From Buchnera aphidicola (Stegophylla sp.) (lineage in GTDB: Bacteria; Pseudomonadota; Gammaproteobacteria; Enterobacterales; Enterobacteriaceae), in NCBI RefSeq assembly GCF_005080785.1, contig NZ_CP032998.1, positions 230,679 through 294,678 of the forward strand: DNA of 64,000 nucleotides, read 5' to 3'. The translations under genes were made by a program, and so were the position numbers. How positions within the stretch are numbered: the first letter of the stretch is position 1; each line of letters begins with the position of its first letter. The notes under the pieces are model-generated. The model did no database searches and was not told the DNA's origin. It saw only the letters and a list, made by a program, of their open reading frames with translations. Below, piece after piece: positions 29,734 to 53,550 of the stretch.

Positions 29734-30732
29734 ATGAATTGTTTATATAAAAAAAGTTTTTTAAAAATGTCAGATTTAAATCAAACAGAAATTAAAAAAG
29801 TAATTGATTTTGCTATTTTTTTAAAAGAACAACGGAATAAAAAAAAAGAAAGACAATATTTAAAAAAAAAAAAAATTGCTTTAATTTTTGAACAACAATC
29901 AACACGAACACGATGTGCATTTGAAATAGCAATATATGAACAAGGAGGATATTCTAGTTATTTAAGTCCTAAAAATATACATTTAGGATATAAAGAATCA
30001 ATTTTAGATACCGCTAAAGTATTAGAAAAAATGTATGATGGTATCCAATATCGAGGATGTAATCATAACAATATAAAACTATTATCTAAAAATATTCAAA
30101 TACCAGTATGGAATGGATTAACAGAAAAATATCATCCTACACAATTACTTGCAGATTTGATGACAATACAAGAATATTCACCTAATAAACCCATTAATCA
30201 TATTATTTGTGCATATGTAGGAGATGCGTCTAACAATATTGGGAATACTATATTAGAAACTGCTCATATTATGAATTTTGAATTAAGATTAATTGCACCT
30301 AAAAAATATTGGCCTAATAAAAAATTATTAAATAAATATAAATCAAATAATAAAATTACATGTACTGAAAACATTAAAGAAGGTGTTAAAAAAGTCGATT
30401 TTATTTATACAGATGTTTGGATATCAATGGGAGAATCTGATTCTGTATTAAATGAAAAAATTCTTGCTTTAAAAGCATATCAAGTAAATAACCAAATGTT
30501 AGAATTGACAAAAAATAATCATGTTCAAGTATTACATTGCTTACCAGCTTTACATGATAATAAAACACAAATAGGTAACAAAATATCAAAATTATTTAAT
30601 TTTCATGATGGAATTGAAATCACTAATGAAGTATTTCAAAAATATAATAAAATTATATTTCAACAAGCTGAAAATAGATTACATACTATAAAATCTATAA
30701 TGATTAAAACAATGAAAAATCAATTGATCTAA
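29734..30732 (+). CDS. argI: Ornithine carbamoyltransferase
   Basis: Transfers carbamoyl phosphate to ornithine giving citrulline, a step of arginine synthesis for the host. At 332 aa it compares with 334 in E. coli. Carbamoyl-phosphate loop STRTR at residues 56-60, HPTQLLADLMTIQE, ornithine/SMG region WISMGE and the catalytic HCLPA block are intact. The ATG follows an AGGA Shine-Dalgarno. Downstream the pyrB/pyrI (aspartate carbamoyltransferase) genes known from other Buchnera are missing. argF is the paralogue name; the two cannot be separated by sequence. Confidence 0.96.
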   Translation: MNCLYKKSFLKMSDLNQTEIKKVIDFAIFLKEQRNKKKERQYLKKKKIALIFEQQSTRTRCAFEIAIYEQGGYSSYLSPKNIHLGYKESILDTAKVLEKMYDGIQYRGCNHNNIKLLSKNIQIPVWNGLTEKYHPTQLLADLMTIQEYSPNKPINHIICAYVGDASNNIGNTILETAHIMNFELRLIAPKKYWPNKKLLNKYKSNNKITCTENIKEGVKKVDFIYTDVWISMGESDSVLNEKILALKAYQVNNQMLELTKNNHVQVLHCLPALHDNKTQIGNKISKLFNFHDGIEITNEVFQKYNKIIFQQAENRLHTIKSIMIKTMKNQLI

Positions 30733-35696: not shown

Positions 35697-36616
35697 TTAA
35701 TCAATATTTAATATTTTACATGACACTAATGTGCCAAATTTATTAATATGTCCTATAATAAACATATCTTTAGATTTTTCTATAGTAATTCTAATGATGC
35801 CTTCATGTCGATATAAAATAAAACAAATTTTATTTTTTTTTTGTAATATTACAGGAGAAAAAAATCTTATTTCTGGTAAAGCAAAAAAAATAACTTTTAA
35901 AGGTATAATTAATTTTAAAAAAATATCATAATTTTTTAATATAGAATAACACCGTTTTAATTTATATATTTTTTTTAAAGTTATAGAATCTTGAATATTA
36001 TATGAAGCAATCTGTAATCTTCGTAAAAAAATTACATGAGCACCACATTTTAACATTTGTCCTAAATCATGTACTAATGTTCTAACATATGTCCCTTTAG
36101 AACAAACAATTTTTAATTCAACAAAATTATCATAACGTTTTATACATTCTAATTTATATATATAAATTTTACGTAAAATACGAGGAACAATAAAATTTTT
36201 TCTTGCATATTTATATAATTGAATACCTTGATATTTTACTGATGAATACATAGGAGGCAGTTGAGTAATATGACCTTTAAACATATTTAAAAAATTATAA
36301 AATTCACAATCACTAAAATTAATTATTTTATTTTCTACAATGACACCTTCTGAATCATATGTAGAAGTACTTTGTCCTAATTTTAAAATAACATGATATG
36401 TCTTAATAGAATTTTCTAAATACTTGGAAAATTTTGTTCCTTCTCCAATTAGTATAGGTAATATTCCAGATGCTAATGGATCTAAAATTCCTGAGTAACC
36501 TAATTTACTAAAATAAAAAATTTTTTTTATTTGTTGTAATACTTGATTAGATGATATTCCTGAAGGTTTATCTAATAATAATATGCCATGAATACTTTTT
36601 TTTTTATATTATTCAT
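35697..36616 (-). CDS. truB: tRNA pseudouridine(55) synthase, frameshifted in an A10 run
   Basis: Makes pseudouridine 55 in the T-loop of tRNAs. From the ATG at 36616 (GGA six bases upstream) the frame runs only about twelve codons to a stop. The downstream frame, entered through the A10 run (T10 on the plus strand at 36596-36605), encodes SIHGILLLDKP, the catalytic ILDPLASG with Asp at about residue 46, and CSKGTYVRTLVHDLG. It has no usable start codon before about residue 109, and a stop lies just before the run. One extra A joins the halves into 306 aa (E. coli 314). Probably read by polymerase slippage; otherwise a recent pseudogene or assembly error. Confidence 0.9.
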
Positions 36617-36644
36617 ATTATTTCCATTGTATAAAATATAAATA

Positions 36645-37046
36645 TTATTTTAATACCCTATTAATTAAATTAGATATCTTGATCCCTGAAATTAAAGAAT
36701 CATCATAACAAAATATTAAAGATGGTATTATTCTCAAGTGAAGATTTCTAGATAATATTTTTCGAATATAACTAGAAGAATGTTGTAATATTTGCATAAT
36801 TTTTGGAATATGATTTATATTATGAGTATTTTTCATAAAATGTTGATTTGCCCCTAAATAACTAAAAAATATTTTTGCACAAGATAAATCATGTGATATT
36901 CTAACCATAGAGATAGTAATAAAAAAATTTATTCTAGGATCTTTAATATATTTTTTTAATATTAATGATATTTCTTGTTTTAATATATTTGAAACACGAA
37001 TAGAACGTTTAATATTTTTTCTGTTAAATTTTTGAAATGATTTCAT
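36645..37046 (-). CDS. rbfA: 30S ribosome-binding factor A
   Basis: KH-type factor for late 16S rRNA maturation. At 133 aa it has the same length as E. coli. RSIRVSNILKQEISLILKK near the N-terminus and the later SYIRKILSRNLHLRIIPSL correspond to the E. coli RVAQELQKEIALIL and IRSLLGKAMRLRIVPEL blocks. ATG at 37046, about 25 bases after infB, within the nusA-infB-rbfA-truB-rpsO-pnp run. Confidence 0.95.
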   Translation of the reverse strand: MKSFQKFNRKNIKRSIRVSNILKQEISLILKKYIKDPRINFFITISMVRISHDLSCAKIFFSYLGANQHFMKNTHNINHIPKIMQILQHSSSYIRKILSRNLHLRIIPSLIFCYDDSLISGIKISNLINRVLK

Positions 37047-37071
37047 ATGATTATTTAATATTATAATAAAT

Positions 37072-38661
37072 TTATATTTTTAACTTTATTACTTCAAATG
37101 ATTTGATTATATCACCAATATTCATATCATTACAATTTTTTATACTAAGACCGCATTCTTTACCAGTATTCACTTCTTTAATATCTTGTTTAAAATGTCT
37201 TAATGACTCTAATTCACCTTCATGTATAATAAGATTGTTACGAATTAGATGAATATGATTATAACGTTTTATAATACCTTTTGTTACCATACATCCTGCA
37301 ATGACAGATTTAGAAGATTTAAATATATTTCTCACTTCCGCAATACCCATAATTTTTTTATTATATTGAGGAGATAATAATCCTAAAACAATTGATTTTA
37401 AATCATCTATTAAATTATATATTACTGAATAATAACGAATATCAATATTTTTATTTATAATCATATATTTGATTGAAATATTTACTTGTACATTAAAAGC
37501 AATAATAATAGATTTTGATGTTAATGCTAAAGAAACATCAGTTTCTGTAATATTTCCAACATTAGCATAAACAATTTTAATACTTACATTTTTATGTTGA
37601 ATATTATTTAAAGAATATAAAATTGCTTCTAATGATCCTTGGACATCAGTTTTCAATATAATATTTAAAAAAACATTATTTTTATTATTTAAATTATCAA
37701 ATATATTGTCTATAGTTATTTTTTTTGTCTTATATAACTTCATTTCTCTAAATTTTTTTTTTCTAGATATAGAAATTTCACGTGCTTTTTTTTCATGTTC
37801 AATAATAGTAAAAAAATCTCCACTTATTGGAACACCAGAAAATCCTAATATTTTTACAGGAATTGATGGTTCAGATGATTGTAATTCACATCCAAAAGAA
37901 TCTTGAATAGAACGTATTTTACCATATTCTAAACCACATAATATAACATCACCTTTCTTTAAAATTCCTTGTTGTACTAAAATCGTAGATATAACACCTT
38001 TATTTTTATCAAGATACGATTCAATTATCATGCCTGAAGCTAAACCAGAATAAATAGCAGTGAGTTCTAGTAATTCAGATTGTAATAATATTGAATCTAA
38101 TAATTCATTTATACTTTCACGATTTTTTGATGATATATTAACAAATATATTTTGTCCTCCCCATTCTTCTGGCAAAATATTATATTTCATTAATTCTTTT
38201 TTAATTTTTTCAGGATTAGACTCTGGTTTATCAATTTTACTAATAGCAACCAGTATAGGAACATTCGATTCCTGAGCGTAACGAATAACTTCTATTGTTT
38301 GCGGTTTTACTCCATCATCACCAGCAATCACTAAAACAATAATATCTGTTATTTTTACCCCCCGAGAACGCATAGAGGTAAATGCATCATGTCCAGGAGT
38401 ATCAAGAAAAGTAATTACTCCTTTTTTTGTTTTGACATGATATGCATTTATATGCTGTGTAATACCTCCAAATTCATGATCAGCAACATTAGAAGAACGT
38501 ATACAATCTAATAAAGTTGTTTTACCATGGTTTACATGACCCATAATAGTCACTACAGGAGGTCGAACTTTTTTTATACACTTTTTATTTAAAACTTTTT
38601 GATTATTTTTTAACGCTTTTTTAGATTTATTTTCATTTTTAATAATCACATTATAACCCAT
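37072..38661 (-). CDS. infB: Translation initiation factor IF2, G domain and C domains only
   Basis: GTPase placing fMet-tRNA on the 30S subunit. The intact frame from ATG 38661 (or TTG 38676) encodes about 530 aa against 890 in E. coli. It starts just before the G domain: [16 protein letters not shown] (G1), GGITQHI (G2), DTPGHDAF (G3), SKID (G4; NKID in E. coli), then domains II, III and the fMet-tRNA-binding domain with GECGL-like [11 protein letters not shown] at the end. The N-terminal domains are missing from the frame but partly recognisable upstream in other frames. Neither candidate start has a Shine-Dalgarno, so initiation is unclear. Confidence 0.93.
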
Positions 38662-38860
38662 GTTATTTGAAATCAATGATACTGTTTGAAAATCAATTTT
38701 TTGATAACAGTAAGTATTATACTATTTGAAACATTTTTTTTATCAAATTAGAACTATTTATACACATTTTTTTAGATAAATCAAATACTGTAATTGTTTT
38801 ATTAAAAATTATATCTTTGAAAATAATTTATTTGATTGATAATGTTTTTTGTAATAAAAT
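38662..38860 (-). pseudogene. infB: Eroded N-terminal segment of infB
   Basis: Reading upstream of the intact infB frame, different frames give LQKTLSIK, a stop, then KDIIFNKTITVFDLSKKM and NLIKK, matching E. coli IF2 LQQGFQKP, RDVVIGETITVGELANKM and QVIKA. Next to the intact part, [15 protein letters not shown] matches VIDQETAQLVAEEMG. One added A in the A8 run and one in the A6 run would give a 31-residue stretch of identical length to E. coli, but a further in-frame stop lies upstream, so this part looks genuinely decayed. Confidence 0.7.
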
Positions 38861-39428
38861 ATTATATATTTTCTTTGAATTATGTGAATAGTATAAAAAT
38901 ATTTTTTTATATTTATATTTTGATTATTATAATCTTAAGTATCTTTTTTATAATATTTATATCGTTTAATATTTTTATATATATTAAAATTTAATATACT
39001 TTTATTATTTTTTTTAAATATATTGAAAATATTTTTTTAAATTTAACATATTTTTAAAATATCTCAGTAAATATAATCATATTATACAATAAACTGTTAA
39101 GTCATTTTATAAAAAAATTCTTTATTTTATATATTTTACAAATAAATTTTAGTCTATTTATTCTTAATTTCTATACTTAATACACAATAAAATAACTTAT
39201 TTGAAAATAAATTAATAATTTAAAAAAAATTGATATTGTTATATTATATAACAAATAAATAAACATATTGTATATATTTACATATTATACTTTTATAATA
39301 TATATTAGAAAATATAAAAATATATTTTAAAAATATATTTGTTTATTGTATAATATAATACATATTTTAATATACTGTATTAATAAGTAATTCAATATAT
39401 TAAATATTTTTAAATTATTTTATTAAAC
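38861..39428. other. AT-rich stretch between eroded infB start and nusA
   Basis: T-rich on the plus strand. It probably once encoded the rest of the IF2 N-terminal region, but I can read no further similarity. No RNA gene or terminator is seen. Confidence 0.5.
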
Positions 39429-40688
39429 TTAATTTAATGAATTAAAAAATATTTTTTTTAATTTTTTCCGAATCCAAAGTACTATATTTATATTTATATC
39501 TTGAATTTTTAATAATACATTATCAGAAATATAAAATAATTCTTCTAAAGAAGAAAATCCTTCTTTAATCAAAATATTTATAATATATTTTTGTAATTGT
39601 AAACATTTAAAAAAAAGATTATAAATTTTTCTCATTTTTATTGTATTTTTTTTTTTAAATTCTTCAACAGTTAAAATATTTAACTTCCAACCACTTAATT
39701 TTGACGCTAATCGTACATTTTGACCATGTCGACCTATTGCTTGTGATAAATAACTAGTATCAACCAAAATATCCATGGTATAACTATCTTCATGAACAAT
39801 TATATCAATCACATTAGCAGGAGCCATAGCATTGATAACAAATTGTGCAGGATTATTATTCCATAAAATAATATCTATACGTTCATCAAAAATTTCTTTA
39901 GATATTGCTTGTATTCGTGTGCCTCGAATACCTATACAAGCGCCAATAGGATCAATACAATGATCATAACTTATGACAGCTACTTTAGATCTAAACCCAG
40001 TATGACGTGCAACTGCTTTAATTTGTACTACTTTTTCTTTAACTTCTGGTATTTCTATTTTAAATAATTCAAATAAAATTTCAGGTTTTGAACGACTAAT
40101 AAATAATTGTATACCTTTTTTAGGAATATGTTCATGATATAATATACCTTTAATACGATCTCCTAATTTCAAATGTTCCTTAGGAATCATATCTTTATCT
40201 TGCATCATAACTTCAATATGATCATTTAAATTTAAAATTATATATTTTTTTTTTATCGATGTTACAATACCTGTAACAATTTGATTAGGGTAATGATAAA
40301 TATTATCCAATATTTTTTTCATTTCTATTTCTCTAATTTTTTTAATAATTTCCTGTTTAATAATTTGAGTAGTAAAGCGATTCAACATAACAGAATCAAT
40401 TTGATCTTCTATATAATCATTTATTCTCACATATCTATTTTCAAATTGTGCTGCTTCCAAAGTAATTTCTCGGGTTGGTTTCGTCACATATAAAACTATT
40501 AACCACCTACGAAAAGTATGAAAATCACCATTCTGTCTATTGATACTAATTCGTACATCAATGTCATAAGGATATTTTTTTTTTGTCGCTATGGACAATG
40601 CAAATTCTAATATTTTAAAAATTTCTTCTCGGGACAATAGTTTTTTATTCTCTATAGATTCTACAATAGATAAAATTTCTTTATTCAT
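39429..40688 (-). CDS. nusA: Transcription termination/antitermination factor NusA, no AR2 domain
   Basis: RNA polymerase-associated pausing and antitermination factor. At 419 aa it is shorter than E. coli (495). The N-terminal polymerase-binding domain begins MNKEILSIVESIENKKLLSR; the S1 domain follows (about 135-200), then two KH domains with DPIGACIGIRGTRIQAI and AIGRHGQNVRLASKLSGW. The first acidic repeat (about 350-419) is kept in degraded form; the second repeat, which in E. coli binds alpha-CTD, is absent. rimP, normally upstream, is not present. ATG start at 40688. Confidence 0.95.
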   Translation of the reverse strand: MNKEILSIVESIENKKLLSREEIFKILEFALSIATKKKYPYDIDVRISINRQNGDFHTFRRWLIVLYVTKPTREITLEAAQFENRYVRINDYIEDQIDSVMLNRFTTQIIKQEIIKKIREIEMKKILDNIYHYPNQIVTGIVTSIKKKYIILNLNDHIEVMMQDKDMIPKEHLKLGDRIKGILYHEHIPKKGIQLFISRSKPEILFELFKIEIPEVKEKVVQIKAVARHTGFRSKVAVISYDHCIDPIGACIGIRGTRIQAISKEIFDERIDIILWNNNPAQFVINAMAPANVIDIIVHEDSYTMDILVDTSYLSQAIGRHGQNVRLASKLSGWKLNILTVEEFKKKNTIKMRKIYNLFFKCLQLQKYIINILIKEGFSSLEELFYISDNVLLKIQDININIVLWIRKKLKKIFFNSLN

Positions 40689-40840
40689 TAATTAACCTGA
40701 AAAGTTAATGTTTAATATTAATTCAATTATACTAGAGATCAATAAATATAAATTATATTTTAAATAATTGCATATCATATTTATAATACTGAAAATACAT
40801 ATATAAACACATTTTAAAAACAAATTAATAATTTTATATA

Positions 40841-40868
40841 TTAAAACCTCGATAATACGAGGTTTTAA
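40841..40868 (-). terminator. Hairpin between tRNA-Leu(GAG) and nusA
   Basis: Perfect 11-bp inverted repeat TTAAAACCTCG / CGAGGTTTTAA with a six-base loop, the only G+C-containing hairpin in the 300-base gap. Direction fits termination after tRNA-Leu on the minus strand or a leader structure for nusA. The following U tract is imperfect. Confidence 0.55.
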
Positions 40869-40987
40869 TTGATACTAAATTGTATATAATATATTTGAAA
40901 ATAAAAAATTTTATATTAATTTAAATTATATATATTATATTTCAAAATTATATATCATAATTTTTAATAATAAAATTTCATTTTATT

Positions 40988-41075
40988 TACCGAGGATGGG
41001 ATTTGAACCCATAAGCTATATGATATAGCACTACCTTCTCAAGATAGCGTGTTTACCTAATTTCACCACCTCGGT
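40988..41075 (-). tRNA. leuU: tRNA-Leu(GAG)
   Basis: Class II cloverleaf, acceptor ACCGAGG pairing with CCTCGGT, loop CTTGAGA giving anticodon GAG, variable arm, T-loop TTCAAAT. CCA is not encoded. It follows secG on the same strand, as leuU does in E. coli. The first acceptor base is A where E. coli has G. Confidence 0.97.
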
Positions 41076-41136
41076 AAAATTGTTGCGCAATAATATAAAA
41101 TTTAATACTACTTATTAAATTAATATTTATTTAATG

Positions 41137-41373
41137 TTAATTCATAATAATATTATTCATATTTAAGTTACATATTAACACACTCAGCAATAAAAAAATT
41201 ACAATAAGAAATTTAATGATACGATTAATAATAGTATTATAATATATTGGATTAAACAATTTAACACTTTTATAAGAAGAATAAAAATCATTTTTTTTCA
41301 CTGGATGTAACATAATTAATGTAACTAATGAACATGTAATAATAATAAATATTAATAAAATAAAATAATACAT
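41137..41373 (-). CDS. secG: Preprotein translocase subunit SecG
   Basis: Small auxiliary subunit of the SecYEG channel in the inner membrane. At 78 aa (E. coli 110) it has two transmembrane segments, about 2-22 and 52-70. The conserved LVTLIMLHP corresponds to LVGLIMLQQ, and the end LICNLNMNN to LVLGNINSN. The glycine-rich cytoplasmic loop of E. coli is replaced by a short Lys/Ser/Tyr loop and the C-terminal tail is gone. Identification rests on the N-terminal motif, size and position before leuU. Confidence 0.87.
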   Translation of the reverse strand: MYYFILLIFIIITCSLVTLIMLHPVKKNDFYSSYKSVKLFNPIYYNTIINRIIKFLIVIFLLLSVLICNLNMNNIIMN

Positions 41374-41475
41374 AATTATATAACCTTTATAAATATTAAA
41401 TATAATATCAAAATATATACATTATAAAAATCATAAACTGTCATTCTATATAAAATGATATATTATTCAACATTA

Positions 41476-43320
41476 TCATTTATTTATATTATTCCATCCA
41501 ACAGGATCTTTAACTTTTTTTCTATTCATTAAATCATCGATTTGATCGGCATCAAGAGTTTCATATTTCATTAATGCATCTTTCATAGCATGTAAAATAT
41601 CTAAATTTTCATTTAATAATTTTTTAGATCGATTGTAATTTCTATCAATTAATAATTTAATTTCTTCATCAATGATACGAGAAGTTTCATTAGATATATA
41701 CATGGACTTCAGTGATGTATGATTAAAAAATATTTGATTATCATCATCATCATGTGAATATAATATAGGACCTAATTTTTCTGAAAAACCCCATTTTATT
41801 ATCATATTACGTGCTAAACTCGTAGCTATTTTGATATCATTCATAGATCCAGTAGATATTTTTTGTACACCATATATTATTTCTTCAGCTAAACGACCAC
41901 CGTATAAAGTAGATATTTGACTTTCCAATTTTTCTCGACTCACACTTACTATATCAGATTCTGGTAAGAAAAATGTTATACCTAAAGCTAATCCCCGAGG
42001 TACTATAGTTACTTTATGCGCTGGATCATGTTCTGGAACTAATCTTCCTATAATTACATGACCAGATTCATGATATGCAGTAAATTCTTTTTGTTTTTCT
42101 GTCATCATCATAGATTTTCTTTCAGCACCCATCATCATTCTATCTTTAGACTGTTCAAAGTCTGACATAGAAACAAATTTTTTATTTGATCTTGCAGCAC
42201 ATAATACAGATTCATTAACTAAATTTGATAAATCAGCTCCTGAAAATCCTGGTGTACCTCTTGCAATTACCATACAATTTACATCAGATGAAATAGGGAC
42301 ATTTTTTATATGAATTTGAAGAATTTTTTCACGTCCTTGAATGTCAGGTAATGGAACAATCACTTGTCTATCAAAACGACCTGGACGTAACAAAGCAGAA
42401 TCTAAAACATCAGGTCTATTAGTAGCAGCAACTAAAATGATATTTTCATTATCTTTAAATCCATCCATTTCAACTAACATTTGATTTAATGTTTGCTCTC
42501 GTTCATCATTACCTCCACTAGTCATTCCCCCTCTTCGTCTTCCAACTGCATCAATTTCATCTATAAAAATTATACAAGGTGCTAATTTTCTAGCATGTTG
42601 AAATACATCACGAACTCTTGAAGCACCTACACCAACAAACATTTCTACAAAATCCGATCCAGACATTGTTAAAAATGATACTTGTGCTTCTCCTGCAATA
42701 GCTTTTGCAAGTAATGTTTTACCAGTCCCAGGTGGACCAATCATTAAAATTCCTTTAGGAATTTTACCTCCCAATTTTTGAAATTTTTTTGGTTTTTTCA
42801 AATATTCTACTAATTCACGTACTTCTTCTTTTGCTTCATCACATCCTGCTACATCATCAAAAGTAGTACGAATTTCATTTTTAGAAAATATATATGTTTT
42901 ACTTTTACCAAATGATTTCATATGATGATTGTGACTATTTTTCATTCTATACATAAAATATAACCATAATCCAATAAGTAAAATAGTTGGAAACCATGAA
43001 ATAAAAATAGAAAAAATAATACTGTGTTTTTGTGGAGGCTGACTTGATATAATCACATCATGTGATAATAAACGATTCAATAATTTCGAATCATATAAAG
43101 GCATATAAGTAGAATATTCACTATGATCTTTTGTTATAATATTAATATAATTGTCATTAATACATACTTTTTGTATTTCATGTTTATTTACTAATGATAA
43201 AAATGTAGTATAATCAATATTGTGATCGTTTACATTGTGTATATTGAAGCCATACATAATAAATATAAACAATATTAATACCATTAACCAAAATATAAAA
43301 TTTTTAGCTATATCATTCAA
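41476..43320 (-). CDS. ftsH: ATP-dependent zinc metalloprotease FtsH
   Basis: Membrane AAA+ protease for quality control. At 614 aa it compares with 644-647. Two N-terminal transmembrane segments (about 7-24 and 98-118), Walker A GPPGTGKT, Walker [16 protein letters not shown], the arginine-finger region and the zinc motif HESGH. The start is a TTG at 43320, with GAGG eight bases upstream; its beginning [12 protein letters not shown] matches E. coli MSDMAKNLILWL. The disordered C-terminal tail of E. coli is missing. Between rlmE and secG; folP and glmM of the E. coli order are gone. Confidence 0.97.
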
Positions 43321-43368
43321 TGTATCAACCTCATGATAATTACAAATATGTTAAAAATTAATAGAATA

Positions 43369-43995
43369 TTATATTTTTTTTTTTTTTGCTAATAAAAAAA
43401 CTTCTTTAGATCGACTTCGCGACGAAGAAGGTTTACAAATTCTTATTGTATTAAAAAAATCGTACATATTATGTAAATAATTTTCAAATTCTTCCCCATG
43501 AAATAATTTAATTAAAAAAATACCCTTATTAGATAAAGTTATTTTAGCAATTTTGAAAGCTAAATTAAACAAATCAAATGCATTAGACATATCAGTATAA
43601 GAAATTCCAGTTATTTTAGGTGACATATCTGACATAACTAAATTAATTTTTTTATATTGTATATGATTTAACAAAGCATTAAATATTATTTTCTTAGAAA
43701 TATCACCTTGTAAAAAAAATACTCCTGAAATTTTATTCATAGCATTCATATCACAAGATGTCACTGATCCGGTTTTTCCGACGTGTTTAATAGCATATTC
43801 TGACCAACCACCAGGAGATGAACCCAAATCAATAACATTCATTCCAGTTCGAAATAAATGATACTTTACATCAATATCATGCAATTTAAACCATGACCGA
43901 GAACGTAAATTTTTCTGATGAGTTTTTCGAACATATGGGTCACGAAAATGTTCTGATAACCAACGATATGAACTAATAGAACGTTTTTTTATCAT
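43369..43995 (-). CDS. rlmE: 23S rRNA 2'-O-methyltransferase RlmE (FtsJ/RrmJ)
   Basis: Methylates U2552 in the A-loop of 23S rRNA. At 208 aa it compares with 209. SKSRSW-like LRSRSWFKL, SAM motif VIDLGSSPGGWSEYA, VMSDMSPKITG with the catalytic Asp, and LIKLFHGEEFENY. ATG start. The 3' end of the gene is an A14 run (T14 on the plus strand at 43374-43387) just before the stop, so slippage there would only change the last few residues. Confidence 0.96.
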   Translation of the reverse strand: MIKKRSISSYRWLSEHFRDPYVRKTHQKNLRSRSWFKLHDIDVKYHLFRTGMNVIDLGSSPGGWSEYAIKHVGKTGSVTSCDMNAMNKISGVFFLQGDISKKIIFNALLNHIQYKKINLVMSDMSPKITGISYTDMSNAFDLFNLAFKIAKITLSNKGIFLIKLFHGEEFENYLHNMYDFFNTIRICKPSSSRSRSKEVFLLAKKKKI

Positions 43996-44111
43996 ATTGA
44001 TAATTTTATAAAATATATTATCTTTTAAAATATTATATACATATAAAACATTTACAACTCAAATATTTAACTATATTAAAATATCATTTAAGTATTAAAA
44101 TATATAATTTA

Positions 44112-44588
44112 TTAGATATATTTAATACTTAAAATTTTATAACTAACTTTACCTCCAGGAGTATTAACTATTACAATATCAGAAACTTTTTTACCAATTA
44201 ATGCTTTAGCTATTGGAGAGTTAACAGAAATTAAATTTTTTTTATAATCAGATTCATCATTACCAACAATACAAAATGTAAATATTTTATTAATATCTAT
44301 ATTTAATACTTTAATAGTAGAACCAAATGTAACCTTTCCATTAAAATAAATATTTTTTATATCAACAATCTGAGCGCAACATAATTTAGATTCAATTTCC
44401 CGAATTCGATTTTCACAAAATAATTGTTCTTCCTTAGCTGCATGATACTCAGCATTTTCTTTTAAATCACCATGTTGCCTTGCCTCAATAATAGAATTAA
44501 TAATTTTAGGTCGTTTATAATTTTTAAGTTCATATAATTCTTTTTCTAGTTTTTTTATTCCATTTATAGTTATAGGTGTTGTATACAT
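44112..44588 (-). CDS. greA: Transcription elongation factor GreA
   Basis: Rescues backtracked RNA polymerase by stimulating transcript cleavage. At 158 aa it has the same length as E. coli. The N-terminal coiled coil carries the acidic tip in GDLKENAEYHAAKEEQ, and the C-terminal FKBP-like domain ends with SPIAKALIGKKVSDI and TPGGKVSYKIL. ATG at 44588. It is divergent from ibaG. Confidence 0.97.
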   Translation of the reverse strand: MYTTPITINGIKKLEKELYELKNYKRPKIINSIIEARQHGDLKENAEYHAAKEEQLFCENRIREIESKLCCAQIVDIKNIYFNGKVTFGSTIKVLNIDINKIFTFCIVGNDESDYKKNLISVNSPIAKALIGKKVSDIVIVNTPGGKVSYKILSIKYI

Positions 44589-44764
44589 TACAATATTTCC
44601 TTAATTATCTTAAATGTATAATAAATATAATATATTTAAACAATTAATTTATATTAAAATATAAAATAAAATTATTTAACAAATAAATATAATATATATT
44701 ATATTTATTATTTTTTACATACATTGTAAAATAATTTATAACTTTAATATGATAAAAATAAAAT

Positions 44765-45016
44765 ATGAAAAATAAAGATATTCAATCTTATTTAATGAAA
44801 ACAATTCCTCTCGATAAATTATATGTAACTGGTGATAATAATCATATCAAAATTGTCGCTATTGGAAAAATATTTGAAGGAATAAATAATGTTCAAAAAC
44901 AACAAATCATTTATAAACCTTTAACAAAATATATTATAGAAAAAAAAATACATGCTATTTCTATTCATACATTTACTTTAAAAGAATGGAAAAAAAAAAA
45001 TACAACAAAACAATAA
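44765..45016 (+). CDS. ibaG: BolA-family protein IbaG (YrbA)
   Basis: Small BolA-like protein thought to work with monothiol glutaredoxins in iron-sulfur handling. At 83 aa it compares with 84 for E. coli IbaG. VTGDNNHIKIVAIGKIFEGI, QKQQIIYKPLTKYI, and AISIHTFT match the BolA fold; the conserved His lies within the loop before IKIVAIG. ATG start. In E. coli it is followed by murA, which is absent here; rplU follows within about 160 bases instead. Confidence 0.9.
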   Translation: MKNKDIQSYLMKTIPLDKLYVTGDNNHIKIVAIGKIFEGINNVQKQQIIYKPLTKYIIEKKIHAISIHTFTLKEWKKKNTTKQ

Positions 45017-45176
45017 ATATTATTTAAAATAAATTCTATATATAAATATTTTATATAATATTCATGTATTTAAAAAATAATTATGAAAACTTAAAATAAT
45101 TAATTTATTCATCAATTATATTTTTTATTTAATGAAAATTATCATAAACTATTTACCCAATATAAGGAATATATTC

Positions 45177-45491
45177 ATGTATGCAATTTTACAACATGGT
45201 GGTAAACAATATCAAATTGAACAAGGAAAAACAATTCGAATAGAAAAAATTAATCTGCCAATAAATAAAAATATTGAATTTAACAATATCTTAATGTTTT
45301 CAAATAATGGAAAAACTCAAATAGGACAACCTAATTTATCAAATATTAAAATTATAGGTAATATTATACAACATGGTAAATACAAAAAAATAAATATTAT
45401 TAAATTTCATCGTAGAAAACATTATAAAAAAAAACAAGGACATCGACAACACTTTACAGATGTTAAAATTATAAATATGTATCATATTTAA
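45177..45491 (+). CDS. rplU: 50S ribosomal protein L21
   Basis: Large-subunit protein binding 23S rRNA. From the ATG at 45177 it has 104 aa (E. coli 103), starting MYAILQHGGKQYQIEQG and ending HRRKHYKKKQGHRQHFTDVK; AAGGA lies nine bases upstream. An in-frame ATG at 45132 would add 15 unmatched residues. First gene of the conserved rplU-rpmA-obgE group. Confidence 0.97.
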   Translation: MYAILQHGGKQYQIEQGKTIRIEKINLPINKNIEFNNILMFSNNGKTQIGQPNLSNIKIIGNIIQHGKYKKINIIKFHRRKHYKKKQGHRQHFTDVKIINMYHI

Positions 45492-45512
45492 ATAAATCTA
45501 AAAGGAAAAATT

Positions 45513-45767
45513 ATGGCACAGAAAAAAGCTGGCGGATCTACTCGAAATGGAAGAGATTCACATTCAAAACGATTAGGTGTAAAACATTTTGGAGGTGAAT
45601 ATATTACATCTGGTTCTATTATTGTTAAACAACGAGGCACAAAATTTCATGCCGGCAATAATGTTAAACTAAGTAAAGATCACACTATATTTGCAATTAA
45701 AAATGGAAAAGTACAATTTTTAAAAAAAGGAATAAAACGTAAAATTTATGTAAATATTATTATTTAA
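45513..45767 (+). CDS. rpmA: 50S ribosomal protein L27
   Basis: Large-subunit protein near the peptidyl-transferase centre. At 84 aa it compares with 85. The N-terminus [20 protein letters not shown] is diagnostic, followed by [13 protein letters not shown]-like [18 protein letters not shown] Shine-Dalgarno and ATG. Separated from rplU by about 20 bases, so co-transcribed. Confidence 0.98.
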
Positions 45768-45906
45768 TTAAAATATAACAATATTACTATATTTTATTAT
45801 AATACATTGTAATAATCTATAATAAAAAATAAAATATATAATATATAAAAATTATAAATGAAAATTTTTATTTGATTATTTAAATATTAAAAAATAATTT
45901 TTATGA

Positions 45907-46926
<1,020 letters not shown>

Positions 46927-46940
46927 TATATAGAATTTAA

Positions 46941-46967
46941 AATCCGGATATTGAAATATTCCGGATT
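46941..46967. terminator. Bidirectional hairpin between obgE and rpsI
   Basis: Inverted repeat AATCCGG / CCGGATT with a partly paired A/T centre, midway between two convergent genes 48 bases apart. The G+C stem in otherwise A/T DNA suggests selection as a shared terminator. Confidence 0.6.
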
Positions 46968-46974
46968 ATAACAT

Positions 46975-47367
46975 TTATCGTTTAGAAAATTGAGGTTTTT
47001 TCCTTGCTTTACGTAATCCAACTTTTTTTCTCTCAACACGTCTCGCATCTCGAGTTACAAAACCTGCTTGTCGTAATTCACTTTTCAATGACGAATCACA
47101 TTTAATTAAAGCATGTGTAATACCTTGACGAATTGCTCCAGATTGACTAGATATTCCACCTCCTTTAACAGTAATATATAAATTTACTTGATTTAACATA
47201 TTAGTTAATTGTAATGGATGCAAAACTACCATACGTAATGTTTCTCGAGGAAAATATTCTAATATAGATTTTTTATTAATAACAATATCACCTTTTCCTT
47301 TTTTTAAAAAAATACGTGCAGATGAACTTTTTCGACGACCAGTAGCATAACTTTGAATATTATTCAT
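46975..47367 (-). CDS. rpsI: 30S ribosomal protein S9
   Basis: Small-subunit head protein whose C-terminal tail reaches the P site. At 130 aa it has the E. coli length. [18 protein letters not shown] at the start and the basic end [14 protein letters not shown] are diagnostic. ATG start 15 bases after rplM, the conserved rplM-rpsI pair. Confidence 0.98.
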
Positions 47368-47382
47368 AAATTGTACCCAAAA

Positions 47383-47811
47383 TTAAATATTTAAAAACGC
47401 AGGATTTTGTGCTGTATGCATATGAGAATCAGAAGCATACACTTTTAATTTTCGAAACATAGCGCGACCCAAAGATCCTTTTGGTAACATCCCTCGAACT
47501 GCAATTTCAATCACCCTTTCAGGATATTTTAAAATCATATCGTGAAAAGATATTTTTTTAATACCTCCAATATAACCAGTATGTTGATAATATAACTTAT
47601 CTTGTTTCTTATTTCCCGTTACTATCACTTGTGAAGCATTTAAAACAATAATATAATCTCCTACATCAATATTGGGAGTATATTCTATTTTATGTTTACC
47701 TCGTAAATAATAAGATATCTGAGTACATAAACGACCTAAAATTTTTCCTTTTGCATCAACATAATACCAATTTTTTTTTACATGATTACAGTTTATCGCA
47801 AAACTTTTCAT
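47383..47811 (-). CDS. rplM: 50S ribosomal protein L13
   Basis: Early-assembly protein of the large subunit. At 142 aa it has the E. coli length. [40 protein letters not shown] and [20 protein letters not shown] are conserved. ATG at 47811; divergent from pheA. Confidence 0.98.
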
Positions 47812-48039
47812 TTATATTATCCAAAATGTATATATAACAATTTTAAATTATATAAACATAAAAATATTTAACATACAATTATGTTATATAATCAAATATT
47901 TATACTTTCTGTGTAAAACAAAAACAAATATATATAATTCTTACTAATAATATTATTATTTTAGTACAATAAGATAAGTATAATGTTATATTGATTAAGA
48001 TAGAAAATATTTACAAATAATAATATTATGGATTAAATT

Positions 48040-49143
48040 ATGTACTATCAAAAAAAATTACTTACGTTCAGAAATAAAATAAATGATATTGACAAAACAA
48101 TACTACGATTATTATCTGATAGAAAAAAAATAATAGTAAAAATTGTACACAATAAAATTTTTTATAATTTATCTATAAAAGATAAAAAACGAGAACAAGA
48201 AATATTAGAAAAATTATTTAAAATAGGAAAAAAATATTTCTTATCTAATTATTATATTAAAAAAATATTTAAAAATATTATTCACGAATCTGTAAAAATA
48301 CAACAAAAAATTAAAAATAAATATATTACTAAAAACATTTTTACAACACCTTGTTTTACTTTTCTTGGCCCAAAAGGATCATATTCATATCTTGCAACTA
48401 TAAAATATGCTAAAAAAAAATTTCAATATTTTAACATAAAAACACAAGTAAATTTTCAACAGATATTTCAATCTATTAAAAATAAAATATCTCATTTTAC
48501 AATTGTACCTATTGAAAATACTTACTCTGGATTCATCAATGAAATATATAGCTTATTACTATTAAGAAAAATAAATATTATTGATGAAGTTGTAACTCCA
48601 ATACAACATCATTTAATTACAAAAAATATCACTCATTTAAAAAATATCAAAACGATTTATAGTCACCCTCAACCATTCGAACAATGTAATAAATTTTTAA
48701 AGACATTTAAAAATTTAAAAATACAATATACAAATAGTACTACAGATGCAATAAGAAAAATACTTACAATACAAAATAATTATTCTGCTGCTATAGGAAA
48801 TAAAGAAAAAATAAAAACATATCAACTAAAAAATCATAAAAACAAAATTACTAATCAAAAATATAATAATACTAAGTTTTTTATATTACAAAATAAAAAA
48901 TTTAAAAAATTTCCAAATGTTACTACAAAAATAATTTGTATTATAAATATAAAACAATATTTAGAATTAACTAATAAAATATTATTTCTTTTAACCCAAA
49001 ATAAAATAAATATATTAAAAATAGAATTAAAATCAAATCATTATAAAATATTTTGGGAAAATACTATATATTTAGAAATTCAAAAGTATCCATTATCAAA
49101 AAAAATAAAAACAATATTAAAAAAAATAAAAAATATCAATTAA
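48040..49143 (+). CDS. pheA: Bifunctional chorismate mutase/prephenate dehydratase
   Basis: Converts chorismate via prephenate to phenylpyruvate for phenylalanine supply. At 367 aa it compares with 386. The mutase domain (about 1-95) keeps the expected Arg, Lys, Asp-x-x-Arg-Glu (DKKRE) and Gln positions. The dehydratase domain (about 105-285) has FLGPKGSYSYLA, VPIENTYSGFINEIY and SHPQPFEQC; the TRF motif reads TKF. In the C-terminal ACT domain the E. coli phenylalanine-binding motifs GALV and ESRP align by eye with ELTN and ELKS, suggesting weakened feedback inhibition. ATG start; no leader peptide seen. Confidence 0.95.
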   Translation: MYYQKKLLTFRNKINDIDKTILRLLSDRKKIIVKIVHNKIFYNLSIKDKKREQEILEKLFKIGKKYFLSNYYIKKIFKNIIHESVKIQQKIKNKYITKNIFTTPCFTFLGPKGSYSYLATIKYAKKKFQYFNIKTQVNFQQIFQSIKNKISHFTIVPIENTYSGFINEIYSLLLLRKINIIDEVVTPIQHHLITKNITHLKNIKTIYSHPQPFEQCNKFLKTFKNLKIQYTNSTTDAIRKILTIQNNYSAAIGNKEKIKTYQLKNHKNKITNQKYNNTKFFILQNKKFKKFPNVTTKIICIINIKQYLELTNKILFLLTQNKINILKIELKSNHYKIFWENTIYLEIQKYPLSKKIKTILKKIKNIN

Positions 49144-50107
49144 AATTATAAAATATCTAAATCATACAACAAAATATGTTCATATATTTTAAAATTATAA
49201 TAATATAATTATTACAACCAATATTTAAGAATTTTAAAATATAAAAATATTTAAAACATACAAAAATATAATAATATAAAACTAAAATATTTTAAAAAAT
49301 TCAATTTATATACTATAATTAATGAATAAAATAATAACATTTAATATTATGATAAAAAATAAACAATATGATAATATCAAAAATGAAAATATATTATCAA
49401 AATAATAATAATTATTATGTAATAAATATATAAAACCATAGATAAATTTAATATTTTCAATCCACAAATAATTATATATAATATTAAACAATAAAATTAT
49501 ACGATATAATAAAGTATTTACATAATTTATGATAATAATATTATATTAGTTACATAATAAATTGCATTATTAAAACATAAAATTATTTCTTTTATTCATT
49601 TTAAAATATATATAATATCACGTAAAATAATAATAAAAACTTTTTAAATATTTAAAATTATATATTTCATAAATATATAAAAATAAAGTAAAATAATAAT
49701 TATTTAAAATACATTTCCAATCTGTTATAAAAATTTTTTATATATAATAAATATTATAAATTAATTAAATCATTGAGTTCATTAAGTATTCAAAATAATA
49801 TAAATAAAATATTTATTTTTTATCTTTTAAACATATAATCTTAAATATAAAAATATTTTTTATATAAATAAATAAATAAAAATATAATATAAATAATAAA
49901 ATATATATTCATTATCATAAAAAATTATATACATATAATAATAAATATATTAAAATTAATATAACAAATTTAAAATTATTACATAAACACACAATCTTTT
50001 AACAAAAAAATTTTTAATATATTATTTATATTTATCATATATAATAGAAAATAATATAATAAAATAATATTACCAGAATACATTAACCAATATTAACACG
50101 AGGAAAT
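49144..50107. other. Nearly 1 kb gene-free stretch between pheA and rpsP, position of ffh
   Basis: In E. coli ffh is next to rpsP, and other Buchnera keep ffh between pheA and rpsP. Here the interval has only chance reading frames (for example 49306-49491 on the minus strand, all Ile/Tyr/Phe/Asn) and no trace of the SRP GTPase motifs. Confidence 0.55.
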
Positions 50108-50374
50108 ATGGTAAAAATACGATTAGCATTACATGGTGCAAAAAAAAAACCATTTTATAAAATAGTAGTTGCAGATAGTCGATTCCCGCGAAATGGAAGA
50201 TTTATTGAAAACATTGGATTTTTTAACCCAAACATTAATCAAAAATCAAAAAAAATCAATTTAAACCTCAATCGAATCGACTATTGGATAAAAAATGGTG
50301 CAAAAATGTCAGAAAGAATAAAAACAATAATTAAAAAAATAAAAAAAAATAATTTTTTACATAATAAAAATTAA
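50108..50374 (+). CDS. rpsP: 30S ribosomal protein S16
   Basis: Small-subunit assembly protein. At 88 aa it compares with 82. MVKIRLALHGAKKKPFYKIV and DSRFPRNGRFIENIGFFNP are diagnostic. ATG follows GAGGA. First gene of rpsP-rimM-rplS; the C-terminal tail is Lys/Asn-rich. Confidence 0.97.
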   Translation: MVKIRLALHGAKKKPFYKIVVADSRFPRNGRFIENIGFFNPNINQKSKKINLNLNRIDYWIKNGAKMSERIKTIIKKIKKNNFLHNKN

Positions 50375-50400
50375 AAGAAAAAGAGGAAATATATAAATAA

Positions 50401-50894
50401 ATGATAAATCCATTAGTAATTGGAAAAATTGGTTGTGCTTATGGTATATTAGGTTGGAATACTATATTATCTTTTACTGAAAAAAAAAAAATATTTTTCA
50501 ATATCACCCTTGGTATATTATGAAAAATAATCATTGGAAAACTATATCTTTAGAACATAAAAAAATATATCAAAATAAAATAATAATTAAAATTAAAAAT
50601 ATTAATAATCGTGATCAAGCTAAAAAATTAGTCAATTCTTTAATTATGATTGATGCTCAAATATTACCTAACCTAAAACAATTTGAATACTATTGGAAAG
50701 ATATTATTTCTTGTAGAGTGTTTAATACATATCAAAAATATATTGGAATAGTTTACAATATTATAAGATCTAAATCAAATGATATATTAGTAATTAAAAA
50801 TTATTATCACGAAATACTCATTCCTTTTATAAAAGATACTATTATTTATCAAGTAGATATCATCAATAAAATTATTCATGTCAATTGGAATTGA
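50401..50894 (+). CDS. rimM: Ribosome maturation factor RimM, frameshifted in an A12 run
   Basis: 30S maturation factor binding S19. From the ATG at 50401 the frame gives MINPLVIGKIGCAYGILGWN, matching E. coli VLGKMGSSYGIRGWL, up to FTE; it then hits the A12 run at 50480-50491 and stops at 50519-50523. The other frame continues NIFQYHPWYIMKNNHWK (E. coli SIFDYQPWFIQKAGQWQ) and ends with the PRC-barrel part FEYYWKDIISCRVF. One extra A joins them with exactly the E. coli spacing (TE, four residues, IF), giving about 164 aa. The second part alone begins at 50520. Likely rescued by slippage; an assembly error or young pseudogene is possible. Confidence 0.9.
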
Positions 50895-50981
50895 ATATAC
50901 TATGTAAAGTATCAATATCATAGTTAATACAATAAAAATATTTTATTTTTAAAAATTTTTATAAATATTGGATACATGATA

Positions 50982-51356
50982 ATGAAAAACAACATTATAA
51001 AAAAAATTGAATATCAACAAACTAAAAAAAAAAAAATACCTTGTTTTAGACCTGGTGATACCATAGAAATACAAATTTGGGTAGTAGAAGCATCTAAAAA
51101 ACGTCTACAATCTTTTGAAGGTATTGTAATATCCATAAAAAATAGACAATTACAATCTTCATTTACAGTACGTAAAATTTCTCATGGAGAAGGTATTGAA
51201 AGAGTTTTTCAAACATATTCAAATATTATTGAAAATATTATAGTTAAAAAATGCGGTTCAGTAAGAAAAGCAAAATTATATTATTTACGTCATAAAATGG
51301 GAAAATCATTACGTATTAAAGAACGTATAAAAAATATATCCAAACATAAAAATTAA
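50982..51356 (+). CDS. rplS: 50S ribosomal protein L19
   Basis: Protein at the subunit interface of the 50S. About 124 aa from ATG 50982 (E. coli 115). [51 protein letters not shown] and AKLYYLR are diagnostic. GGA lies nine bases before 50982 but only three before an in-frame ATG at 50976, so I prefer the former. It follows rimM by about 90 bases; in E. coli trmD lies between them. Confidence 0.97.
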
Positions 51357-51360
51357 ATTA

Positions 51361-51386
51361 TGCAGTCATATGTTGTATTGACTGCA
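51361..51386 (+). terminator. Hairpin after rplS
   Basis: Perfect 8-bp inverted repeat TGCAGTCA / TGACTGCA with a ten-base loop, starting five bases past the rplS stop. The following run is A-rich rather than T-rich, so it may act as a 3'-end stabiliser as much as a terminator. Confidence 0.5.
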
Positions 51387-51902
51387 AAAATAAAAATATA
51401 ATTATGGATATTATCTATCATAATATTAAAAATATTCATAAAATATATATTATTGTAAAATATATTATTATTTATATCCATACAAAATCTTAAATACCTC
51501 ATACAAAATACAAGCAAACATAATGATACAATTTATTTAATTTATAACACAAAATATTAATTTCTTACAAATTATTTTTAAAATACAAATAGATGCTATA
51601 AAATATAAAATACAAAAAATATTATATACTATATTGTATTAAATAGTATATTATATTAATATTATATAAATGAAGATAAGTATTTTTACAATATAAATAC
51701 ATAATATTTTATTGTCTAAAATTTAAAATAATTATATAAATCAAATGTTTATTTTATTAAAATATATATAAAATTATAAAATATTAAATTTTTATGGCTT
51801 ATTATATAATAATTTTTAATAAAATAAACAAAAATTAAATGCTTTACAAAAATATTTAAAATGATTACCATAAATTATGAAATAACTATATAAAAAATAA
51901 AT
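51387..51902. other. 0.5 kb gene-free stretch between rplS and aroQ
   Basis: AT-rich, with no gene, RNA or clear repeat readable. Confidence 0.5.
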
Positions 51903-52358
51903 ATGTCTTATTTTAAAATTCTAATATTAAATGGACCTAATTTAAACTTATTAGGAACACGAGAAAAAAAAATTTATGGCACAAAATCATTAAATACTTT
52001 AATAAACGAATTATATACAAAATTTAATCAATCAAATGTTAAAATAACACACTTACAATCTAACGCAGAACATATTTTAATCGAAAAAATACAAAAATCT
52101 AATAAAAATATTGATTACATCATCATCAATCCAGCTGCTTTTGCACATACAAGTATAGCGTTACGAGATGCATTATTATCAATAAATGTTCCATTTATTG
52201 AAGTTCATATCTCTAATATATATTCTAGAGAAAAATTTAGATCACATTCTTGGTTATCTGATATTGCTCAAGGTATTATCTGTGGATTTGGAACTGATGG
52301 ATATTATTGGGCAATCAAAACAGCACTAAAAAGACTAAAGAAAAAACATAACTATTAA
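51903..52358 (+). CDS. aroQ: 3-dehydroquinate dehydratase, type II
   Basis: Third step of the shikimate pathway, supplying chorismate to PheA. At 151 aa it has the typical type II length. [16 protein letters not shown] carries the active-site Arg and Tyr; [19 protein letters not shown] and [14 protein letters not shown] carry the catalytic His region and substrate loop. ATG start. E. coli has an unrelated type I enzyme (AroD); type II is what Buchnera is known to use. Confidence 0.97.
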
Positions 52359-52621
52359 ATCAATTTCATCATGTAATATTAAAATAATAAAATATAAAAA
52401 ATTATTTAATTGATCATAATAAACGTTAATATTATATACATGAATCAAAAATATATATAAAAAATTTTTCAATACAAGGACTCATATTACATTTTATAAA
52501 CAATGACTATATAAATAGTATTATAAATATATCAAATATATACCTAATTATAATACAATAAAACTATAATATATTTCAAAATCTTTTATAAAATAATATA
52601 AATATTATTCATATTTATATA

Positions 52622-53550
52622 TTATAAATATTGCATAATATGTAAAATATCTATAGGTAACGATATTTGAAACCTCATTAACTTATTAAAAACAGGATGA
52701 ATAAATGCTATTGTACTAGCATGCAATGCTTGTCTAGAAAATAACCTAATTTTTTTTACAGATTGATGTGTCATCCCTGTTGAGATATTATTATTATATA
52801 ATAAATCTCCTAAAATAGGATGTCGTATATGCAACATATGTACACGAATTTGATGTGTACGTCCTGTTTCTATTCGAATACGAAGATGAGTATAATATTT
52901 AAATTGTTGTATAACACGATAATGTGTAACGGAAGTTTTACCAGATATATTAGTCATCATACAAATTCTTTTTTTAATATGTCTCATAATAGGATAATTA
53001 ATTACTCCTCCAGAAATTACATGACCACATACTAATGCATCGTATTCACGAATAATTAATCTTTTTTTTAATAAAAATACCATTTTTTCATAACTATACA
53101 CATCTTTAGCAATAACCATCAAACCTGTAGTATTTTTATCTAATCTATGTATAATCCCCCCTCTAGGTACATTTTTTAATCGATAATCATAATATAACAA
53201 AGCATTTAATAAAGTACCATTTACATTTCCACATGCGGGATGTACAACACAACCAATTAATTTATTAATTATTAATATATTGTTATCTTCATAAATAATA
53301 TTTAAAGGAATATTTTCACCTAAATCATATTTTTTTTCTTTAACATCTAAAAAAATAGTAATTTTATCTCCAGGAAAAACATTAAAATTTGGTTTATCAA
53401 TAATCAAAAAATTTATCAATACTTGACGAGAAATAATGTATTTTTTTAAAATCGATCGAGAATAATTAGGAAACATACATACTAAAATATGATCTAATCT
53501 ACTTTTTTTTTATAGTATATTGGAACAATAACTTCAATTTTTTTTTTCAT
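52622..53550 (-). CDS. rluD: 23S rRNA pseudouridine(1911/1915/1917) synthase, frameshifted in an A9 run
   Basis: Modifies helix 69 of 23S rRNA. From the ATG at 53550 the frame gives MKKKIEVIVPIYYKKK, then stops after the A9 run (T9 on the plus strand at 53503-53511). The other frame continues RLDHILVCMFPNYSRS (E. coli RLDQALAEMFPDYSRS), then HRLDKNTTG with the catalytic Asp at about 138 and ETGRTHQIRVHM. A stop precedes the run in that frame and its first ATG is at 53476, which would cut into the S4 domain. One extra A yields about 309 aa (E. coli 326). Probably rescued by slippage. Confidence 0.9.

Follow-up and report, generated by a model that had tools for sequence, protein, structure and literature searches.

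Poly(A) frameshifts in truB, rimM and rluD of Buchnera aphidicola (Stegophylla sp.): probably tolerated breaks with partial rescue by slippage

Genes that are interrupted by a frameshift within a poly(A) run and rescued by transcriptional slippage are known from Buchnera and Blochmannia (Tamas et al., 2008, as cited in PMC3164680, PMC3017870, and PMC5009743). According to excerpts of these sources, conserved homopolymeric frameshifts with corrected transcripts have been described in both genera (PMC3017870; PMC5009743), corrected transcripts make up 12–50% in endosymbionts (PMC5009743), and one to 18 homopolymeric frameshifts per genome are recorded for eight tabulated Buchnera genomes (PMC3164680). 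The present work concerns breaks of this kind in three genes, truB, rimM, and rluD, which lie within a 64,000-nucleotide stretch of Buchnera aphidicola (Stegophylla sp.). This stretch, referred to below as the window, covers positions 230679–294678 of a single 412404-bp contig and has a GC content of 21%. Among plasmid records, its LeuA most resembles that of Buchnera aphidicola (76%).

The breaks reported here resemble the slippage-rescued genes of Buchnera and Blochmannia in that they occur in an AT-rich insect endosymbiont, each is a frame break of one base, occurring once per gene within a long run of A, the frame is otherwise intact and under purifying selection, and some are shared between species (truB, rimM, and rsmI, the rluD break lying at another site). 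They differ from the earlier set in the genes that are affected (truB, rimM, rluD, rsmI, and folD) and in being known here from the DNA sequence alone. In Blochmannia vafer, the excerpted account (PMC3017870) lists eight genes broken at poly(A) or poly(T), including dnaX, dnaG, and pth, three of them in information transfer; there, likewise, the dnaX break is common to a second species and no unusual acceleration is seen in the four genes whose break is unique to B. vafer, although both the genus and the genes are different. The Buchnera set, as far as it is excerpted from PMC3164680, is of the same kind and of similar number per genome (here five kept breaks in 69% of the genome), with recurrent hits to one gene in both cases (murF there, rluD here), but its examples murF, murE, and mraY are cell-envelope genes. 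Among the listed titles and abstracts on Buchnera truB, rluD, and rimM or on rRNA modification and pseudouridine synthases in Buchnera, we found none that concerns frameshifts in these genes.

Broken genes in the window and in related genomes

The genome holding the window (G000) was compared with ten relatives of the same genus (G001–G010; 11 genus genomes in all), which are 419–453 kb in size and have the same order of genes as the window. The sister genome G002 shows 77% residue identity with G000, and an unrooted tree based upon 31 genes (9799 sites) had the branching (G007,(G008,(G004,(G000,G002)))) with a support of 1.0. The window was aligned with all ten relatives using a self-written frameshift-aware protein-to-DNA aligner, and a census sample of 284 kb of G000 (69%), consisting of the window and eleven 20-kb stretches, was compared with G002, G004, and G007. 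A run is termed "one short" when it is one base under the register that joins the start codon to the body of the gene, and "one over" when it has one extra base. Breaks were kept if they were supported by at least two references, by a family or protein search, or by a check of the 5' end. Alignment rows away from runs of at least nine were not counted, nor were those at the ends of genes or at RNA genes. The features are collected in Table 1.

In truB, the start codon (36616–36614) and the body (35700–36602; 301 codons) are in different frames. Within the body frame, no ATG, GTG, or TTG is present in the first ~106 codons past the A10 run, and the break was kept on the 5'-end check, the case being one of a body without an in-frame start beside an out-of-frame ATG. 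The run is one short in both G000 (A10) and G002 (A11), and in eight other genomes the gene starts in frame. In rimM, an N-terminal part of ~26 codons beginning with the start codon at 50401–50403 is in another frame than the body of 136 codons, and all nine references support the break. An A12 of equal length with the identical break is present in G002. The open frames of rimM are 137 and 140 aa in G000 and G002 vs. at least 166 aa in the nine others; the gene is in one frame in nine of the 11 genomes, and the match in G005 has one internal stop. In rluD, the codons from the start (53550–53548) to about the 13th are in another frame than the body (52625–53509; 295 codons), as supported by three of three references. 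None of the three bodies contains a stop or a second frameshift.

The rluD gene of G002 is in frame at the G000 site and breaks at a later A13 (5/5 references), which shows that two hits to one gene are possible. It is of full length in G004, G007, and G008, whereas in the other six of the ten relatives (G001, G003, G005, G006, G009, and G010) RluD has lost its N-terminal part and retains the catalytic one. Because these six have dispensed with the N-terminal part altogether, an internal ATG in G000, whose open reading frame (52622–53476) would encode 284 aa, may also serve as a start.

These results bear out what a preliminary description of the window had claimed, namely that truB (A10), rimM (A12), and rluD (A9) are each one A short in the first third of the gene (the runs are in fact within the first fifth of each), and that all three act in tRNA or rRNA maturation (the NCBIfam families are TruB, RimM, and RluD, the last just under its cut-off). 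The A14 that it noted at the 3' end of rlmE indeed occupies the last codons. Outside the window, rsmI is split at A11 in both G000 and G002 and forms a single frame in the nine other genomes. The folD break in G000 has one reference in the census alignment and was kept because a full open frame is present in nine relatives (9 of 11 genus genomes); in G002 no match for folD was found. The kept poly(A) breaks of G000 are thus truB, rimM, rluD, rsmI, and folD, all of them one short, and a second set of five stretches contained no further kept break.

Table 1. Features of G000 and its relatives. Positions without a genome label are those of the window.
Feature	Position	Strand	Remarks
truB, tRNA pseudouridine-55 synthase	35697..36616	-	NCBIfam TIGR00431, 230.7 bits
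truB A10 run, codons 4-7	36596..36605	-	one base short of register
rimM, ribosome maturation factor	50401..50894	+	NCBIfam TIGR02273, 118.4 bits
rimM A12 run, codons 27-31	50480..50491	+	one base short
rluD, 23S rRNA pseudouridine synthase	52622..53550	-	NCBIfam NF008385, 341.6 bits, just below cut-off 351
rluD A9 run, codons 14-16	53503..53511	-	one base short
rlmE	43369-43995	-	NCBIfam RlmE; A14 in frame
rlmE A14 run, last codons	43374..43387	-	in frame
rsmI A11 run	G000:60257-60267		one short
folD A14 run	G000:337216-337229		one short
ybeY, A10	G002:C1:317762-318201		one short, 3/3 references
ribE, A12	G004:C1:86147-86742		one short, 2/2 references
erpA, A14	G004:C1:167091-167428		one short, 2/2 references
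secA, A10	G007:C1:161985-164446		one short, 3/3 references
pheA	G007:C1:303523-304636		one base too many near A9, 10/10 references
metG (name by eye)	G007:C1:86431-88059		only nearby ATG out of frame ahead of A10
Dropped A-run (>=9), secE-like (name by eye)	G002 41068		one short
Dropped A-run (>=9)	G004 345871		one short
Dropped A-run (>=9)	G004 348248		one short
Dropped A-run (>=9)	G007 104547		one short
Dropped A-run (>=9)	G000 310666		one over
Dropped A-run (>=9)	G002 29157		one over
Dropped A-run (>=9)	G007 315035		one over
Dropped A-run (>=9)	G007 344644		one over
Dropped T-run	G000 354235		
Dropped T-run	G004 206169		

Direction, sharing and constraint of the breaks

Across G000, G002, G004, and G007, 15 kept poly(A) breaks with open bodies were found. 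Thirteen are one short (truB, rimM, rluD, rsmI, and folD in G000; truB, rimM, rluD, rsmI, and ybeY in G002; ribE and erpA in G004; secA in G007) and two are one over (truB in G004 and pheA in G007), a difference that is significant by the sign test (p = 0.007) and also when shared breaks are counted once (10:2, p = 0.04). The products YbeY, RibE, ErpA, SecA, and PheA were named from in-frame homologs. The metG gene of G007 was set aside in this count because an in-frame ATT stands directly before its run, at the position of the G000 start codon, and the gene may start at this codon; with its inclusion the count becomes 14:2 (p = 0.004).

In the excerpted data of PMC5574713, transcription insertions in Buchnera fell in homopolymers in 151 of 157 cases, vs. 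16 of 57 deletions (elsewhere the same paper gives 15 deletions, 21%, of 70), and A insertion is the prevailing transcription indel in A/T runs. As insertions occur mostly in A/T runs, the genes that are one short are therefore those that RNA polymerase could rescue. Slippage of the ribosome by –1 at these runs would restore genes of the same direction, and the two are inseparable here; a replication bias towards shortening is a possible third cause for the excess.

The breaks in truB, rimM, and rsmI are common to G000 and G002. G004, in which truB is likewise out of register, forms one clade with these two genomes. If the sets of broken runs in the two genomes, consisting of five and six, were independent on 208 runs, three shared breaks would have a probability of about 0.0001; the set of six used in this test comprised the kept five and the secE-like call that was later dropped, and weakly constrained genes would raise the chance of sharing. 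The open bodies are an argument for function only on condition that the breaks are old, and the sharing suggests such age, without being proof of it.

In the comparison of G000 with G002, the bodies of truB, rimM, rluD, and rsmI (for the last, 85 codons only) show 71–74% aa identity, and the ratio of changes at codon positions 1 + 2 to those at position 3 is 0.55–0.69, vs. 0.24–0.91 for 41 other genes. RNA-modifying genes that are in frame rank nearby among the 45 genes when these are ordered from most to least constrained (rlmE 31, rluC 36), and for folD, which was compared with G004 only, the ratio is 0.41 over 113 codons. When neutral change was crudely simulated at 0.10 substitutions per site, the bodies of truB, rimM, and rluD acquired on average ~8, 3, and 7 stops, vs. 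none observed, and remained free of stops in 0, 77, and 2 of 2000 runs, respectively; at 0.05 substitutions per site the corresponding numbers were 28, 381, and 52.

On the basis of these sequence comparisons, we consider it likely that the breaks are real, persistent one-base frameshifts in poly(A) that are tolerated and partly rescued by slippage, rather than sequencing errors or genes that are already dead. Replication slippage would have left the runs one short, while the gene bodies, judging from the comparison with G002, appear to remain under purifying selection. RNA polymerase would slip in runs of 9–14 A, often adding one A and returning part of the mRNA to register, and because a fraction of the mRNA would thus be in register, full-length protein is probably made at a reduced yield. 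Among the three options that the preliminary description had left standing, a common transcriptional insertion of A appears to be the best supported, given the direction of the breaks, the open and constrained bodies and the published Buchnera data.

Several observations weigh against this interpretation. Eight weaker A-run calls that were dropped, one of them (G000 310666) a single-reference call at an A9 near the gene start, are divided 4:4, and their addition changes the count of directions to 17:6 (p = 0.03). Both truB of G004 (A10) and pheA of G007 are off by one in the opposite sense. The excerpted PMC5574713 data include no frame-restoring transcription error. Additionally, the four bodies tested occupy ranks 24, 28, 38, and 42 among the 45 genes, so that some relaxation is possible, and the constraint test is coarse in that third positions may be saturated. 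Lastly, sharing could also reflect recent, parallel hits to genes under weak constraint.

A further proposal, which we regard as conceivable but doubtful, is that in this clade the frame across runs of about nine or more A is nearly neutral in one direction. Owing to the tendency of RNA polymerase to add A, genes that are one short would keep working, and the opposite change would mostly be selected out; the broken genes would then mark a low need for the protein, in the G000/G002 branch for the rRNA and tRNA maturation set. In this way even secA of G007, a gene that is normally essential, and perhaps metG, would have drifted to one short.

Competing explanations

The breaks could alternatively be those of early pseudogenes, in which gene function is gone but too little time has passed for the bodies to decay. 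RNA-modification genes are being lost in the genus (trmD was not found in four of the 11 genomes, and the rluD N-terminus is missing from the six relatives named above), folD lacks a match in G002, and the four bodies tested belong to the less constrained half of the 45 genes. However, the bodies of truB, rimM, and rluD are uninterrupted over their whole length, the sharing of breaks with G002 points to age and the position ratios are well below 1, and on these grounds we consider this explanation unlikely. An ordinary pseudogene would have several stops or indels and codon positions that change alike, which is not what the broken genes display; a contrast is provided by the gene at G000 327605–329215 with its 16 frameshifts. 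That gene is strongly eroded and also has five stops, and its homolog in G002 has an open frame of 583 aa.

Programmed –1 ribosomal frameshifting at the A-run, which as in dnaX would set a ratio of products, fits the genes that are one short in its direction, and the A-runs are slippery. Nevertheless, no unusually stable RNA structure, which could act as a stimulator, was seen within 70 bases 3' of any of the five G000 runs (z of –0.85, –0.06, 0.45, 0.11, and –0.12), and between species both the site of the rluD break and the length of the truB run change, making a programmed event highly unlikely.

The third possibility, also raised in the preliminary description, is a systematic undercalling of homopolymers in sequencing or assembly, the true runs being one longer and the genes intact. 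The uniform direction of the kept breaks in G000 (5/5 one short) is as expected from undercalling, but a general undercall is unlikely because it would put most of the long runs out of frame. The window contains 69 A/T runs of at least nine, 62 of them sense-strand A-runs within aligned genes, and only those in truB, rimM, and rluD were found to be out of frame. The count of coding poly(A) runs of at least nine with their frame and direction, extended to the 284-kb sample, similarly gave 203 unbroken sense-A runs vs. the five kept breaks; 30 of the unbroken runs are 12–18 A long, whereas runs as short as A9 and A10 are out of frame. The automatic run table likewise has 203 unbroken and five broken runs, but its five differ from those kept, since the truB run is at a gene edge, the rsmI gene is cut by the end of a stretch and some of its flags mark the ends of genes. 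Moreover, the rimM (A12) and rsmI (A11) breaks recur at equal run length in a second species, and one frame is seen for rimM and rsmI in nine of 11 genus genomes and for truB in eight. We therefore think it very improbable that undercalling accounts for the breaks.

Some further observations were made on the runs themselves. Long runs of the window that are in frame include an A13 in rplS (51024–51036) and an A14 at 29862–29875. Unbroken coding runs of at least nine in the 284-kb sample number 203 for sense A vs. 24 for T. The window has 133 A9 matches (overlapping), compared with 37.65 expected from shuffled sequence. An A18 without a frame break is present at G000:22982–22999, in an aligned gene (22419–23270) that is perhaps rpoH, as named by eye.

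The remaining option of the preliminary description, a regulated system of partial yield in which A-run slippage would adjust the maturation of ribosomes and tRNA, draws upon the share of rRNA and tRNA maturation genes among the kept breaks (4/5 in G000 and 5/5 in G002: truB, rimM, rluD, rsmI, and ybeY), but the same kind of break in folD, ribE, erpA, secA, and pheA, the opposite shift of truB in G004 and the figures for the gene class given below leave it with next to no likelihood. Within the 284-kb sample, four of 27 hand-listed rRNA/tRNA modification and maturation genes are broken vs. one of ~205 others (Fisher p = 0.0007), a comparison in which the window that set the question is included and in which 14 of the 27 genes were named by family or protein search and 13 by eye. 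Outside the window, where 190 genes were aligned in all, the excess is not significant (1/17 vs. 1/~165, p = 0.18). We read the cluster of RNA genes as tolerance and not as regulation, there being no indication of a dedicated regulator; RNA-modifying enzymes presumably tolerate such breaks in that little enzyme would be needed.

Neighboring genes and implications

The trmD gene, which in relatives is found just 3' of rimM, is intact in seven of the 11 genus genomes, whereas no trmD was found in G000, G002, G007, and G008; its place in the window is 50895–50975, between rimM and rplS. An excerpt of PMC9035817 refers to the loss of TrmD in endosymbionts. In the sampled stretches, position 37 of tRNA-Leu(GAG) is A in G000 and G007 and G in G002 and G004, and tRNA-Pro(GGG) and tRNA-Leu(UAG) of G000 retain G37. 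A ribosomal slip caused by the loss of TrmD was considered and rejected as a source of rescue: the shifts associated with a lack of m1G37 are in the +1 direction, the opposite of that needed, and G004 has breaks despite the presence of trmD. Another gene in the window, infB (37072–39036), has an open frame of 534 aa, its N-terminal part being eroded by stops and changes of frame, and measures 664–869 aa in relatives.

Slippage rescue itself is already known, and the new points are the set of genes, the sharing of breaks between species and, with moderate confidence, the excess of genes that are one short. If the interpretation of tolerated, partly rescued breaks is correct, functional genes would be labeled pseudogenes by automatic annotation, and in tiny genomes DNA alone would not reveal the frame of a gene containing poly(A). 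The excess of breaks that are one short (13/15) provides a testable sign that the error bias of the polymerase helps to decide which frameshifts persist. Together with the loss of trmD, the hits to RNA-modifying enzymes suggest a stepwise relaxation of rRNA and tRNA modification in this branch of Buchnera.

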